Source: Candidatus Zhuqueibacterota bacterium
Lineage (GTDB): Bacteria; SM23-31
Assembly (NCBI GenBank): GCA_022562855.1
Contig: JADFON010000167.1
Span: forward strand, 1-5,308
Length of the DNA: 5,308 bases
Direction: 5' to 3'
Shown: positions 271 through 5,308 of the stretch, piece after piece
Layout of the letters: each line of letters begins with the position of its first letter
Position numbering within the stretch: the first letter of the stretch is position 1
The notes under the pieces: generated by a model
The model's input: only the letters and a program-made list of their open reading frames with translations
Told to the model about the DNA's origin: nothing
Database searches by the model: none
Translations under genes and position numbers: made by a program

Positions 271-1664
271 TGCAGAAATCATTCATTTTCGACTTAAACA
301 AATGTACCGGCTGTCAGGCGTGCCAATTCGCATGTGAGATCGAGAATCAAACAGTTCCGGGTGAATCGTGGCGCACGATCAATACTTTTAATCCCCAGCA
401 TCATCCCGGTGTTCCGGTTTTTCATTATTCAATGGCTTGTAATCACTGTTTAGATGCCCCATGCATGAAATACTGCCCAGCGCTTGCAATATCGAAGGAT
501 TCTGAAACGGGCGCTGTGAATATAGATCCCTCGAAATGCATCGGTTGTAAGTATTGCTCCTGGGTATGTCCATATGACGCCCCAAAATTCAACACATCTT
601 CCCATATAATGGAAAAATGTACGTTTTGCTCACACCGTTTAAAAGAAAACAGAGACCCCGCTTGTGTTTCCGGGTGCCCTACCGGGGCATTGGGATTTGG
701 CAATTATGAGCAAAAATCATTGTCAAATAACGAATTTTTGCCCGGCTTCCCGGAGACAGGAATCAAACCTGCGATAAAACTTGTTAAGCTGCGCAAGGAT
801 AACGAATACCCACAATTGACATCTTCGAATAGTTCTATTTTAAGTAGTGAACATCAAAAGAAATACATTACCGGTAATGCGAGAAAGATTTCGTTGAAAA
901 ATGAGTGGCCGCTTGCAGTATTTACGCTTGCAGCTTCGGTTTTAGTCGCTCTGCTTTGTGCAGCAATGTTATCCGGTATAACTGTCAATCCGGTCTATTT
1001 CCTGATATCAGGATTTGTGGGCATGAATATAAGCGCCATGCATCTCGGAAAAAAAATAAGGGCGCTTAGGGCGGTGCTCAACTGGAAAAGATCCTGGATC
1101 AGCAGGGAAATCATTCTATTTTCAACCTTTTTGATTTTAGGATTCTTGTATCTTTTGCCTGTTGCATACCTGGGAAACTCCGGATGGATTATAACTGTAA
1201 TCGGTTATGGTGCATTGTTTTCTATGGATAAGGTGTATGATATCCGGGGAAGACTCGGATGGAAAAAATTGCATAGTAGTGGTGTTTTACTCACTTCTTT
1301 GTATTTAGCAGGGGTGTTTTCAGGAACATGGGTAATGATAGGATGGTTTGGATTTTGGAAAATGTTCTTTTATACCATTCGAAAAAACTATTGGAAGAAA
1401 ACAGGCGAAAATCCAAGAATTGTCCTAAGTGTAATACGACTCTTTCTTGGCTTTATATTCCCGATAATCCTATACCAGTTAACAGGAACGAATTATGTAT
1501 TGTTCATTTTTCTTAGCGTACTATCGGGAGAACTGATCGACCGGAGTGAATTTTATCATGAATTTGAATTGCTGACGCCGGAAGTACAAATAAGAAATGA
1601 TCTTGAAATAATGCTAAAAAAAGAATCAAAAAACAGGGGGCGAATGGACCCGGTAATCAGATAA
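267..1664 (+). CDS. Fused DmsB-like four-[4Fe-4S] electron-transfer and DmsC-like membrane-anchor subunit
   Basis: This 465-residue protein combines two subunits that are separate in E. coli DMSO reductase. Residues 1-145 carry 16 cysteines in four groups: 13/16/19/23, 58/61/66/70, 91/94/97/101 and 118/121/133/137. This is the DmsB pattern for four [4Fe-4S] clusters, and none is missing. A linker follows with PGFPETGIKPAIK at 159-171, also typical of DmsB C-termini. From about 214 the protein has roughly eight hydrophobic segments (near 214-234, 240-258, 280-301, 305-320, 336-354, 355-370, 386-404, 408-422). It contains the DmsC-like stretch MHLGKKIRALRAVLNWKRSW (258-277) and DRSEFY (425-430). 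By family knowledge the anchor oxidises quinol and the clusters relay electrons to the molybdenum subunit encoded just upstream. The start is set by the ATGA overlap; a second ATG follows directly at 270. The 3' end overlaps the end of dinB by 8 bp. The cluster-bearing domain should face the same side as the catalytic subunit, but no export signal is visible here. Confidence 0.92.
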   Translation: MMQKSFIFDLNKCTGCQACQFACEIENQTVPGESWRTINTFNPQHHPGVPVFHYSMACNHCLDAPCMKYCPALAISKDSETGAVNIDPSKCIGCKYCSWVCPYDAPKFNTSSHIMEKCTFCSHRLKENRDPACVSGCPTGALGFGNYEQKSLSNNEFLPGFPETGIKPAIKLVKLRKDNEYPQLTSSNSSILSSEHQKKYITGNARKISLKNEWPLAVFTLAASVLVALLCAAMLSGITVNPVYFLISGFVGMNISAMHLGKKIRALRAVLNWKRSWISREIILFSTFLILGFLYLLPVAYLGNSGWIITVIGYGALFSMDKVYDIRGRLGWKKLHSSGVLLTSLYLAGVFSGTWVMIGWFGFWKMFFYTIRKNYWKKTGENPRIVLSVIRLFLGFIFPIILYQLTGTNYVLFIFLSVLSGELIDRSEFYHEFELLTPEVQIRNDLEIMLKKESKNRGRMDPVIR

Positions 1665-2928
1665 CTCCACTAAACCTTGATATAATTTTTTCGCCATATT
1701 TATTTCTTAAACTATCCATTACCGGGAGTATTTCATTTTTTCGATAAGGTTCGTTAAACAAATCTTCCTGGTGAGACGTCAATATGGAATCAAATTGTAA
1801 TGGATATAGTTTTGAGACCGATAACCCTATCAACCTTATCGGTCTGTTTTTTTTATACATTTGCTTGAAAAGTAATTTACCTTCTTCAAAAATTTCCCGG
1901 TCATCCCATATTAAATGCGGGAGAGTTTCCCTGTGTGTATGTGTTTCAAAATCGGAATATCTCAATTTAAAAGTAACTGTTTTGCCTCCAAACCCCCTTT
2001 TCCTCATTCTCCTTCCAACTTTTTGGGACAGTTTCATTAGCATCTTAAAAAAAGTATCATCCTCTCTGACATCTTTTCCAAAGGTGTGCTCATGACCGAT
2101 GGATTTTTCGTTTTCTCTTTGATTTACCGGTATGACTGTAGCAGCGCTTTCTCCACGGGCAATTTTTTTCCAATGTTCCCCATTTTTCCCGAAACATTTC
2201 TTTAAAACATTATCCTTGTCAACTGCTAAATCACCAATCGTATATATCCCGATTTTATGTAATATTTCAGCGGTCTTTTCTCCTATTCCCCATAATTTCT
2301 CAACAGGAAGAGGATATACTTTTTCTTCAATATTAACTTTTGAAATTATCGTTAGACCATCGGGCTTATCCATCCCGGAAGCAAGTTTAGCAAATATCCT
2401 GCTATACGCAATTCCAATCGAACAATTTAAATTTAGTTGTTTGAATATTTGTTTTTTTAATTCCCTGGCTAAATTTATCTCATTACCGTATTTTTGCACC
2501 ACATTCGTTATATCAAGATAAGCTTCATCAATGCTTACCGGTTCAACAACAGGGGTAAAAGTATGAAATATTTCTAATAATTGAACTGCAGCGTAGGTAT
2601 ATTTTTTTCCGTGGGCTTTCAAGTAAATGCCATGAGGGCAACGGCGTTCTGCTTCTGCTATCGGCATTCCGGAGTGTATTCCATACTCCCGTGCTTCATA
2701 TGAACAGGTCGAGACGACTCCCCTTCCTCCCGGTATCCCTCCCACTATAACCGGTTTTCCCTTGAGCAGCGGGTTATCTCTTTGTTCGATTGCTGCAAAA
2801 AAGGCATCCATGTCGATGTGCATTATCAGGCGTACATGTGTATTGTGTTTCTTCCGCGTTTTGTTATTCTCTGCCCCTTTTTTTGCCGGCTCGATATTTT
2901 TTACTGCTTCCGGTGGATGCCATGTCAT
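1657..2928 (-). CDS. dinB: DNA polymerase IV (Y-family translesion polymerase)
   Basis: The 423-residue ORF matches Pol IV over its whole length. The catalytic palm has HIDMDAFF at 37-44 (D39 matches E. coli D8, F44 the steric-gate position) and SIDEAYLD at 132-139 (D134 and E135 match D103 and E104). The little-finger region includes KTVTFKLRYSDF at 316-327. QEDLF at 387-391 fits the QxxLF beta-clamp-binding motif, with 32 residues after it. The enzyme copies past damaged bases with low fidelity and is commonly SOS-induced. The start is uncertain. ATG at 2928 adds about 31 Lys/Asn-rich residues before the usual N-terminus, and the codon aligned with the normal first Met (V32) is GTA, not a start. 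The next ATG is M36 (2823), only three residues before D39. Neither has a strong ribosome-binding site, and a TAA lies in frame 24 nt upstream of the first ATG. It is the last gene of the lexA-led cluster, 37 bp after the small ORF. Parts are very AT-rich (14 G+C in 60 bases at 2401-2460). Confidence 0.95.
   Translation of the reverse strand: MTWHPPEAVKNIEPAKKGAENNKTRKKHNTHVRLIMHIDMDAFFAAIEQRDNPLLKGKPVIVGGIPGGRGVVSTCSYEAREYGIHSGMPIAEAERRCPHGIYLKAHGKKYTYAAVQLLEIFHTFTPVVEPVSIDEAYLDITNVVQKYGNEINLARELKKQIFKQLNLNCSIGIAYSRIFAKLASGMDKPDGLTIISKVNIEEKVYPLPVEKLWGIGEKTAEILHKIGIYTIGDLAVDKDNVLKKCFGKNGEHWKKIARGESAATVIPVNQRENEKSIGHEHTFGKDVREDDTFFKMLMKLSQKVGRRMRKRGFGGKTVTFKLRYSDFETHTHRETLPHLIWDDREIFEEGKLLFKQMYKKNRPIRLIGLSVSKLYPLQFDSILTSHQEDLFNEPYRKNEILPVMDSLRNKYGEKIISRFSGVI
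1815..1854 (+). terminator. Intrinsic terminator of the molybdoenzyme operon, inside the 3' part of dinB
   Basis: AGACCGATAA (1815-1824) pairs perfectly with TTATCGGTCT (1836-1845) across an 11-nt loop. One G and then eight T (1847-1854) follow on the + strand. A 10-bp stem with a T tract is a classic Rho-independent terminator, and it reads only in the + direction because no T tract follows on the - strand. It sits 150 bp past the stop of the anchor-subunit gene and within codons 362-372 of dinB. Sequence support is strong; use in the cell is inferred. Confidence 0.8.
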
Positions 2929-2965
2929 GGTGTTTATAACGTTAATTTCTTACAATACTTTCTAT

Positions 2966-3112
2966 TTATCTTCTATCTTGATTCATGTCATTATTTTGAG
3001 ACTCTTCATGTGTTATTGTTCTGATAGTTACCGTGCTCGATGCTTCTACGGTCACCATCCGATTCCCCAATTTGAAAGAGTGCCGGAATATTTTTTTATC
3101 TATTTTTTTCAT
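2966..3112 (-). CDS. Small 48-residue protein of unknown function, coupled to the upstream gene
   Basis: I do not recognise this protein. The ATG (3112-3110) overlaps the TGA of the upstream 84-residue gene (3111-3109) as ATGA, and the frame runs to TAA at 2968-2966. The N-terminus is strongly basic (MKKIDKKIFRHSFKLGNR, 1-18). A beta-like, Val/Thr-rich stretch follows (MVTVEASSTVTIRTITHEE, 19-37), then a polar tail rich in Asn, Asp and Arg. No cysteine, signal peptide or membrane segment is visible. An internal ATG at residue 19 has a GGGGA five bases before it and could be an alternative start. The main support is the stop-start overlap, the same kind of junction as in the molybdoenzyme operon, and the fit of the frame to nearly all of an otherwise empty 180-bp gap before dinB. 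It may assist its coupled partner or Pol IV, but that is only guilt by association. The main alternative is a chance ORF. Confidence 0.5.
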   Translation of the reverse strand: MKKIDKKIFRHSFKLGNRMVTVEASSTVTIRTITHEESQNNDMNQDRR

Positions 3113-3363
3113 CCGTCCATACAGACGCGGGAAAGCTCCCACGACATATTACTCAAATCGAAAGTCAATTCAAAACAGTCGGGACCGTCTGCCATTACAG
3201 AGAAATGGTAGAACCGGTTTGTTCCCTCATCGCTGACCCAACCGCTGTTGATCTTTGAAACTTTGTATGCGCGTTCATTCCATTTGAACCGCAGCGGCTG
3301 TATTTTACCATGCTGGAACAGCGTAATGACCTCTATCGGCTGAAATACATCTTCGTACATCAT
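3109..3363 (-). CDS. Conserved-looking 84-residue hypothetical protein in the lexA-dinB cluster
   Basis: This is a small soluble protein without signal peptide, membrane segment or cysteine pairs. It reads as a compact, mostly beta fold with many aromatic residues: PIEVITLFQHGKIQPLRFKW (9-28), then a W-N-x-R-x-Y-K-V pattern, then INSGW and TNRFYHFSVMADGPDCFELT (48-67). The arrangement 'P-L-R-F-x-W-x-x-R-x-Y-x-V-x-x-I' followed by W and F/Y-rich strands reminds me of small DUF6504-type proteins, some of which sit near Y-family polymerase genes. That is from memory and not certain. The start is well bounded: ATG at 3363 or the adjacent ATG at 3360, with a TAA in frame four codons further up. 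No clear Shine-Dalgarno is seen, so translation may rely on coupling from the SRPBCC gene 62 bp upstream. The TGA overlaps the ATG of the 48-residue ORF. Confidence 0.78.
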   Translation of the reverse strand: MMYEDVFQPIEVITLFQHGKIQPLRFKWNERAYKVSKINSGWVSDEGTNRFYHFSVMADGPDCFELTFDLSNMSWELSRVCMDG

Positions 3364-3425
3364 GATTGGTACATGTTAACGCGGTGAAACAAAAGAAACT
3401 GTTCATTCCCGGTTTTCAATTATTG

Positions 3426-3818
3426 TTAATTCGAAAATTCTCTTTTCAGGTTTTCAAATTCCCGCAAGAGGGATTCATATTGTCCCTGGAACTCTCCATC
3501 ACTCAAGTCCGGAGGCTGAAACATCGTGAATTGCACAAAACTGTTTCCTCCGGGAAGCTCCAAAACCCTTATAGGGAAAACGCCCATTTGATCTTCCGCA
3601 GGTCCTGCAAACATGTCAACAACCCCGGTATCGTTGTCCGCTTTAATTCGGAAGAACATTTCACCCATTGGCGTAACGACTTTATACTTTCCGCTAACCT
3701 GTTTCAATTCTCTGCAGAATTCAGTCACCCATTTCGGCAAATTTTCAACATCCGATAAATAGGAAAATACCTTCTCTTTCGACGCCGTCAGAACTAATGA
3801 TGCCGTTTTCGAATTCAT
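3426..3818 (-). CDS. SRPBCC/START-fold family protein (polyketide cyclase-like), 130 residues
   Basis: The protein has the SRPBCC layout. An opening strand (SKTASLVLTASKEKVFSYLS) leads into a helix and the family-typical 'V-F-x-Y-L-x-D-x-x-N-L-P-K-W' signature at about 17-30. Central beta strands follow (YKVVTPMGEMFFRIKAD, then VVDMFAGPAEDQMGVFPIRV), and it ends in a long helix (QYESLLREFENLKREF) that would cap the ligand cavity. This fold binds hydrophobic ligands or acts as a cyclase, lyase or chaperone-like domain; no catalytic set identifies a reaction here. I chose the ATG at 3818 over the longer frame starting at 3872 because GGAGGA (3831-3826) lies seven bases before it and the family signature begins just after it. 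It is 107 bp downstream of lexA in the same direction with no terminator visible between them. A link to DNA repair is suggested by context only. Confidence 0.85.
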   Translation of the reverse strand: MNSKTASLVLTASKEKVFSYLSDVENLPKWVTEFCRELKQVSGKYKVVTPMGEMFFRIKADNDTGVVDMFAGPAEDQMGVFPIRVLELPGGNSFVQFTMFQPPDLSDGEFQGQYESLLREFENLKREFSN

Positions 3819-3825
3819 ACTTATT

Positions 3826-3831
3826 TCCTCC
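3826..3831 (-). promoter_or_regulatory. Ribosome-binding site deciding the start of the SRPBCC gene
   Basis: The - strand reads GGAGGA followed by seven bases (AATAAGT) and ATG at 3818. This strong Shine-Dalgarno match favours the 130-residue protein over an 18-residue longer version. Confidence 0.85.
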
Positions 3832-3925
3832 ATATCCTCTGTTTCGCACATACCGGTTCCATCTATCGGCATCGGCAGAATGCCAAGTTTGATCGTTTTA
3901 ATTGTGAGTGTCCTATCGGGGAATC

Positions 3926-4558
3926 TTACATTTTTCGCATGACGGCAACGATTTTTCCTGCAACGCGAAAATCATCGAGGTCTTTCTCTACGATGATAGG
4001 ACCGAATGCCGGATTTGCGGGTTCCAGGCGGACACGGTCGCCTTCGGGGTAATACCGCTTGACCGTGGCTTCATCGCCGATAATTGCGGCAACAATATCG
4101 CCGGGAAAATACTGAGAAGCCGGTTTGCCGAGAACGTAGTCGCCGTGGAATATACCGGCATCTTTCATGCTGTCACCGGTAACGACCAATGCAAATACGC
4201 CGTCAGCTTGAACAAAAGTCGTATCGACGGCAAGGTACCCGTCCAGGTTCTCCTCCGCAAGGATAGGAACGCCGGCTGCAATCCTCCCGACAATAGGGAC
4301 TTTCCGTATGTTGCGGATAATCGAAGCATCTTCTGCCCCGGCAAGCGGGGTCAGTTCAATGCCGCGGGCAAGACCCGGGTCCCGGTTGATATAGCCCTTT
4401 TTCTCCAGGGCATCCAAATGAACTTTCACCCCATTGGTGGATTTAATGCCAAAATTGGATGCAATCTCGCGAAAACTCGGCGGATAACCGCGTCTCACTA
4501 TCTCATCCTTGATAAAATCGAGTACTGCCCGCTGACGGTTTGTCAATCCTATTGTCAT
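3926..4558 (-). CDS. lexA: LexA repressor (SOS regulator, self-cleaving)
   Basis: The 210-residue protein is a complete LexA. The N-terminal winged helix-turn-helix spans about 5-70, with TNRQRAVLDFI (6-16), PPSFREIASNFGI (26-38) and the recognition helix region STNGVKVHLDALEKKGYI (40-57). The C-terminal S24-type peptidase domain has the scissile Ala95-Gly96 in GRIAAGVP, the nucleophile Ser130 in VTGDSM and the general base Lys167 in ATVKRY. The 35- and 37-residue spacings between these sites equal those in E. coli LexA (A84, S119, K156). By family knowledge it represses DNA-damage genes as a dimer and cleaves itself when stimulated by RecA filaments. The start is supported by GGGAGG seven bases upstream. 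It heads a same-strand cluster ending in dinB. The HTH differs from the E. coli type (PSFREIASNFGIKS rather than the P-T-R-A-E-I type), so its operator may be different. The gene is GC-richer than dinB (38 G+C in 60 bases at 4021-4080). Confidence 0.97.
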   Translation of the reverse strand: MTIGLTNRQRAVLDFIKDEIVRRGYPPSFREIASNFGIKSTNGVKVHLDALEKKGYINRDPGLARGIELTPLAGAEDASIIRNIRKVPIVGRIAAGVPILAEENLDGYLAVDTTFVQADGVFALVVTGDSMKDAGIFHGDYVLGKPASQYFPGDIVAAIIGDEATVKRYYPEGDRVRLEPANPAFGPIIVEKDLDDFRVAGKIVAVMRKM

Positions 4559-4706: not shown

Positions 4707-4767
4707 ATTGTATTTGTTCATATATAAATGATTATTCGGGTATCATAATATACTGTGCTTATGTTCA
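4692..4767. promoter_or_regulatory. Three TGTTCA words across the lexA promoter region (candidate LexA half-sites)
   Basis: TGTTCA occurs at 4692-4697, 4715-4720 and 4762-4767 on the + strand; the first two are TTGTTCA. Starts are 23 and 47 bases apart. The last lies between the -35 and -10 of the lexA promoter. GTTC/GAAC words form the core of LexA boxes in several phyla (GAAC-N4-GTTC in Firmicutes, GTTC-N7-GTTC in Alphaproteobacteria), but neither full pattern is present, so this is only a candidate for autoregulation. Confidence 0.35.
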
Positions 4768-4775
4768 CTTGTCAA
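4747..4775 (-). promoter_or_regulatory. Sigma70-type promoter for lexA
   Basis: On the - strand, TTGACA (4775-4770) is a perfect -35 and TATATT (4752-4747) a close -10 match, with the ideal 17-base spacer. Transcription would start near 4740, giving a leader of about 180 nt before the lexA ATG. The spacer contains TGAACATAAGCAC, in which GTG and CAC face each other eight bases apart. Confidence 0.75.
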
Positions 4776-4800: not shown

Positions 4801-4917
4801 TACGGCATAAATATTTTTACATTCACCATAATTAGACACCGTAAATTAAAGTCCGGGAACAAATTGGATGAAACTATAGTGAGGAGACATAGCAAACTGT
4901 AATAAAGGATGTCAATC
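4801..4917 (+). other. Remainder of the divergent intergenic region, without a convincing promoter
   Basis: This AT-rich stretch must carry the promoter of the rightward gene, but I see no good -35/-10 pair. TTTACA and TAAATT are 20 bases apart, which is too long. The only clear signal is AAAGGA (4904-4909), a ribosome-binding site eight bases before the ATG at 4918. No coding or RNA gene is evident. Confidence 0.5.
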
Positions 4918-5308
4918 ATGAAATTACCAGGTGCATATAAGGCACTATTAATTAACACATCTTCGGTACAACACGTATTTTTTATGCTAATCGCAATTAC
5001 ATTTGTGCTCCTCTCCTCCGGCGCTGCAACCGCCCAGGAAGCACAGTTAAAACCGATTGCAAATCCTAAACTTGAAATCTCCGGAGAAATAGAGGAAACA
5101 ACCGATTTTTTTGGGAGAAAACGATTTATCGGAAAGATCATTAATAAGGAAAACAAAAGAATTGACTTCATAAAAATCGAAGTTACATTACGCGACCGTG
5201 AGGGCAACGTACTGGAAACTAAGTCGGTTTATATTAAAGGGCAGTTTCACCGTTTTCGTGACCGCCAGATCAGCACAAGCAGTCTCGATTCCGGGAAAAT
5301 CGGGACAT
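4918..5308 (+). CDS. Secreted protein with FxLYD-like domain, partial (N-terminal 130 residues)
   Basis: The frame is open from ATG 4918 to the window end, so the C-terminus is missing. It begins with a Sec-type signal: a 19-residue n-region with two Lys, a hydrophobic core at about 20-32 (VFFMLIAITFVLL) and a likely cut after A-T-A (39|40, before QEAQ). The mature part, from about residue 50, has the alternating strands of an FxLYD-like immunoglobulin-type domain: LEISGEI, then RKRFIGKIINKENKRIDFIK, then VTLRDREGNVLETKSVYIKG, ending SLDSGKIGT where the family usually has 'L-x-P-G-x-x-x-x-F'. Such domains occur in small exported proteins of unknown role. The start is backed by AAAGGA eight bases upstream. 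Met23 would give a more usual signal length but lacks a ribosome-binding site. It diverges from lexA, and nothing visible ties it to the SOS genes. Confidence 0.8.
   Translation, partial: MKLPGAYKALLINTSSVQHVFFMLIAITFVLLSSGAATAQEAQLKPIANPKLEISGEIEETTDFFGRKRFIGKIINKENKRIDFIKIEVTLRDREGNVLETKSVYIKGQFHRFRDRQISTSSLDSGKIGT

Follow-up and report, generated by a model that had tools for sequence, protein, structure and literature searches.

In Geobacter sulfurreducens, the genes lexA, imuB-C and polY are damage-induced and expressed as a single transcript (PMC6511836). In a survey published in 2026, the combination of PolY, ImuB-C and RecA is listed as an association module and has been modelled (PMC12926913), and in Deinococcus a related gene order, lexA-imuY-imuB-C-dnaE2, has been described (PMC8072749). 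We analysed a stretch of 5,308 nucleotides from a Candidatus Zhuqueibacterota bacterium (contig JADFON010000167.1; hereafter, the window), in which a cluster led by lexA ends in dinB, and we conclude that this cluster is very probably an SOS operon of the published lexA-imuB-C-polY type. An earlier, sequence-only reading of the same DNA had regarded the arrangement as unfamiliar; the lexA-imuB-C-polY order has already been published (PMC3765255, PMC6511836, PMC12926913), and the arrangement is therefore not new.

On the minus strand, in the order of transcription, the cluster consists of lexA, an SRPBCC-type open reading frame (ORF), an 84-aa ORF, a 48-aa ORF and dinB (Table 1). The sequence-only reading had described five genes on one strand, with gaps of 107, 62, -4 and 37 bp and no strong terminator between them. 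The one-strand cluster and all four gaps were confirmed, and the intergenic gaps contain 0 terminator-like sites (5 such sites were counted in the whole window, against a chance expectation of 5.6). Of the five genes, four hold up, whereas the 48-residue ORF has neither a coding signal nor a relative. The lexA product scored 212 bits against TIGR00498, for which the cut-off is 111, and the dinB product matched the Pfam families IMS (7.6e-50) and IMS_C (1.7e-28). For the SRPBCC ORF, GGAGG precedes the ATG at 3818, and the start of the longest ORF is at 3872. At the edges of the cluster, the stop of dinB overlaps, at 1657-1664, the convergent stop of a gene for a DmsB/DmsC-like iron-sulfur membrane protein (267-1664), and this overlap is also kept in genome G002 (L032:7918-7934); a divergent ORF at 4909-5307, which is open at the window end, matches the FxLYD domain weakly, and its N-terminus is signal-like.

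Table 1. Features of the lexA-dinB cluster and of the region upstream of it (positions in the window)
Feature	Position	Strand	Assignment and basis
dinB/Pol IV-type Y-family polymerase, 423 aa	1657-2928	minus	Pfam IMS + IMS_C
48-aa ORF	2966-3112	minus	ATGA overlap with 84-aa ORF; probably no gene
84-aa ORF (p84)	3109-3363	minus	Standalone ImuB-C, DUF6504-type; family profiles, neighbourhood, beta model
SRPBCC/Bet v1-fold ORF, 130 aa	3426-3818	minus	Probable lineage-specific insertion
lexA	3926-4558	minus	SOS repressor; LexA_DNA_bind + Peptidase_S24 (Pfam); TIGR00498 equivalog
Best promoter-like site 5' of lexA	4747-4775	minus	TTGACA-17-TATATT, 11 of 12

The closest described system is the Geobacter sulfurreducens operon (GeoPolY-like; PMC6511836, PMC3765255), with which the window shares the order of lexA, an ImuB-C of about 84 aa and an active-looking Y-family polymerase; in both, no ImuA was found and the polymerase carries a RecA-NT-like tail. 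The window differs from this operon in the SRPBCC-fold gene that lies between lexA and imuB-C, and its polymerase differs from the Geobacter type by an extended N-terminus and by the absence of the C-terminal ISPAWRP tail, which is found in a group resembling the polymerase of Geobacter plasmid pSD. In the ImuA-ImuB-DnaE2 mutasome, the C-terminal domain of ImuB is homologous to the 84-aa protein; in contrast to that system, neither ImuA nor a fused ImuB was found here, ImuB-C is standalone and has an active-type Pol IV as its neighbour, and a DnaE2-type gene is located elsewhere in the genome. The Deinococcus type is likewise led by lexA and combines an 80-aa standalone ImuB-C with a Y-family partner, but the window operon contains no DnaE2, and its adjacent Y-family protein, which is without an ImuB-C domain, keeps the catalytic DE pair. 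Bacillus YqjW-YqjX (YolD) and Pol V (UmuD'2C) resemble the predicted system in pairing a Y-family polymerase with a small beta-protein under SOS control, whereas the 84-aa protein belongs to a different family and its model has no clear match in the Protein Data Bank (PDB).

We identify the 84-aa protein (p84) as an ImuB-C of the standalone kind (Pfam DUF6504); in ImuB, this small domain lies at the C-terminus. When p84 alone was compared with DUF6504, it scored 17.2 bits, under the cut-off of 24.2; two weak standalone members of the p84 family scored over the cut-off. The same Pfam model matched the C-terminal domain in three of five ImuB proteins (plasmid records), over the cut-off in those of Bosea and Caulobacter, and the annotation of the Bosea ImuB already names DUF6504. 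Alignment of the p84 family with ImuB C-termini by hhalign gave an E-value of 1.6e-4 across most of the domain, with a probability of 50%. The p84-family profile (A3) detected, with an E-value of 3e-28, an 84-aa protein of the Geobacter anodireducens plasmid pSD, whose gene is flanked by lexA and a polY ORF; this protein was compared in place of the named prototype GSU0042. Near its C-terminal end, p84 carries a tryptophan, W75, that at least 90% of 60 sequences share.

The AlphaFold2 model of p84 (pLDDT 94.3) is all beta, with six strands. A mostly beta structure has also been published for ImuB-C, and the published barrel was reported to be distinct from the SH3 type. Comparison of the p84 model with the PDB yielded no clear match (best Foldseek E-value, 0.08; best VIA-align Z, 5.4), and a PDB profile search with p84 returned chance-level matches only. 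The missing match does not imply a new fold; it agrees with the published remark that ImuB-C is without a close solved relative (PMC12926913). Two other assignments were dismissed: a YolD/UmuD-type subunit, since neither Pfam nor NCBIfam gave a match to such a family, and a fusion of p84 to other proteins, where the long ORFs look like open frames extending upstream of the small gene. A search of genome contigs with the single p84 protein found no relative, and a search with a three-sequence p84 alignment found five loci in metagenome-assembled genomes. Among named records, the nearest belong to unclassified bacteria assembled from metagenomes, and the source lineage is probably uncultured.

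Relatives of p84 with 49-77% identity were found in five other genomes (G002, G004, G005, G056 and G006), all of which carry lexA, p84 and dinB on one strand, with about 2.8 kb between lexA and p84 in G006. By profile search, the family is present in 68 of 386 genomes. When up to about 10 kb was fetched around each match, a same-strand Y-family polymerase gene was present at 53 of the 60 strong loci, and in 41 of those 53 cases it starts downstream of the p84 gene, less than 200 bp away. Same-strand lexA was found at 32 of the 60 strong loci, and lexA together with a Y-family gene at 27; the 7 strong loci without a polymerase gene include several on short contigs. Among weak-scoring loci, which served as an internal control, one of nine had a Y-family gene within 5 kb. 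These relatives show that the clustering of lexA, p84 and dinB exceeds chance. The sequence-only reading had pointed to the neighbourhoods of two of its small proteins: the 84-residue protein does lie near lexA and dinB in relatives, but the SRPBCC protein is absent from the operon of the nearest relative.

Other arrangements were observed in the fetched regions. Two tandem LexA-like genes lie upstream of imuB-C and of a PolY with the motif SLDDAY at L104 and L105 (genomes G078 and G219). At L038:5504-7536, an ImuB-C-like 92-aa gene overlaps a UmuD-like gene, and umuC comes next. A second DUF6504-like standalone group (L103:15189-15449, L097, L101 and L102) has no Y-family polymerase gene within 5 kb.

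The DinB protein of the window and its nearest relative have in common the N-terminal extension MTWHPPE. The window protein contains a catalytic-type motif, SIDEAY, a clamp-like motif, QEDLF, and a RecA-NT-like tail, VMDSLRNKYGEKIISRF. The pattern of this tail was found in 49 of 54 ImuB-C-linked polymerases, with a mean of 2.4 after shuffling; this count is a description and not an independent test, because the pattern was composed from these very tails. With the RecA model, the own genome (about 80% complete) gave a single RecA-family match, which is the true RecA, and no match for ImuA was obtained in that genome or in the operon.

The gene identities, the family to which p84 belongs, the conserved neighbourhood and the tail motif are results of this analysis; for an operon of the lexA-imuB-C-polY type, we infer co-transcription, SOS control, complex formation and function along the following lines. 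LexA would repress its own promoter; DNA damage would give rise to RecA filaments and thereby to self-cleavage of LexA; and lexA, the ImuB-C protein and the active Pol IV-type polymerase would then be produced together. The polymerase probably contacts the sliding clamp via its QEDLF-like motif and RecA via its RecA-NT-like tail, and ImuB-C, a small beta protein, may enter the polymerase complex as the counterpart of the C-terminal domain of ImuB and support lesion bypass. The SRPBCC gene would be a later insertion outside this mechanism. The sequence-only reading had suggested that the small proteins may be damage-response accessories of Pol IV. For the 84-residue protein, this suggestion is well supported by its ImuB-C family and its conserved lexA and dinB neighbours, and p84 is probably such an accessory; it did not hold for the other two small proteins, as described below.

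Control by LexA was considered at the best promoter-like site upstream of lexA. The spacer of this promoter contains GTGAACATAAGCACAG (GAACATAAGCAC), a possible degenerate LexA box that aligns with TTGAACATTTGTTCAG (GAACATTTGTTC) at the equivalent promoter position in the relative L036. Two-mismatch GAAC-N4-GTTC sites occur in the window at chance level (24 found, 23 expected), so that it is position that points to this candidate, and LexA autoregulation is therefore treated as a prediction. Upstream of lexA in L033 and L034, an AT-rich TTTTATCAT/TTTTGATAAC repeat array replaces the GAAC-type box, and this array may be a different LexA operator.

The genes could instead be mere neighbours, with lexA autonomous and p84-dinB expressed separately and constitutively. 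No operator was shown downstream of lexA, and there would be room for promoters in the 107- and 62-bp gaps; we nevertheless regard separate expression as very unlikely, given that the lexA-imuB-C-polY order recurs across many unrelated families, often with overlapping genes, and that a single transcript spans the Geobacter operon (PMC6511836). Relatives whose genes overlap nevertheless offer a firmer case for a single transcript than the SOS operon that we prefer here, which has the SRPBCC insertion and a 180-bp gap before dinB.

The SRPBCC fold assignment itself is sound: the protein matched 2qpv by phmmer with an E-value of 0.0011, and its model, although of moderate confidence (pLDDT 63), matched 2qpv_A by Foldseek with an E-value of 4e-8. 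The gene was found in its own genome only, of 60 searched, with two weak partial matches elsewhere, and in the nearest relative, the same-family genome G002, it is absent and lexA and imuB-C are separated by a gap of 29 bp. This restricted distribution and the absence from the G002 operon led us to treat the gene as a lineage-specific insertion, probably a passenger that is apparently unrelated to the operon; it was also rejected as a conserved operon member. A functional contribution to the damage response of this lineage, with the SRPBCC protein as a fifth member that would, for example, bind a ligand or a damaged base and modulate LexA or ImuB-C, is unlikely in the face of this distribution, even though the ORF lies on the same strand with the two gaps given above, has a good ribosome-binding site and shows an in-frame coding signal. 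The proposed part of this protein as a Pol IV accessory is accordingly not upheld.

The same applies to the 48-aa ORF, which was also proposed as a Pol IV accessory. Its in-frame codon score was reached by 24% of shuffles, as against 0.3% for the 84-aa ORF, and an ORF like it was present in 3.4% of shuffled gaps. No relatives were detected in about 70 regions examined, and the nearest relative has no counterpart in the gap at this place. The missing relatives and missing codon signal rule it out as a conserved gene; it was therefore not counted as a gene, and it probably is none.

The own genome also encodes a second candidate translesion machine. On a contig unlinked to the window (C163 of G000; L132:711-5076), the gene for a 405-aa polymerase, PolY2, overlaps that for a second DnaE of 1061 aa, and PolY2 has the motif SLDDAY where SIDEA is usual (E-to-D). 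PolY2 relatives with 45-69% identity are neighbours of DnaE in five genomes, one of them the own genome; a further three genomes (G348, G078 and G219) have such a relative beside imuB-C, and imuB-C, polY and dnaE are clustered together in L071, L072, L073, L075 and L081. The PolY2 relatives beside imuB-C and the three-gene clusters suggest that p84 might also serve PolY2-DnaE2 in trans. One ImuB-C would then serve two translesion machines, the neighbouring DinB and the unlinked PolY2-DnaE2, and p84 would supply the third part that a split ImuB still lacks, a proposal that is compatible with the operon explanation and competes with it on the main role of p84. We consider such sharing possible but doubtful. 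It is in line with the single p84-family match that the own genome gave and with published models that set ImuB-C against the PHP domain of DnaE2 (PMC12926913); the physical separation of p84 from PolY2-DnaE2 in this genome weighs against it, and a second imuB-C may exist, because completeness of the genome is about 80% and contig C163 ends 429 bp upstream of polY2, where an adjacent imuB-C could be cut off. If sharing is true, one LexA-controlled small subunit would switch on two translesion machines, in a three-way split of ImuB function.

With the cluster read as an SOS operon of the lexA-imuB-C-polY type, a little-studied type of mutasome is now extended to an apparently uncultured lineage, and Pfam DUF6504 is explicitly linked to ImuB-C. 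The locus offers a clean test case for the partner of a standalone ImuB-C, which may be an active Y-family polymerase, DnaE2, or both.
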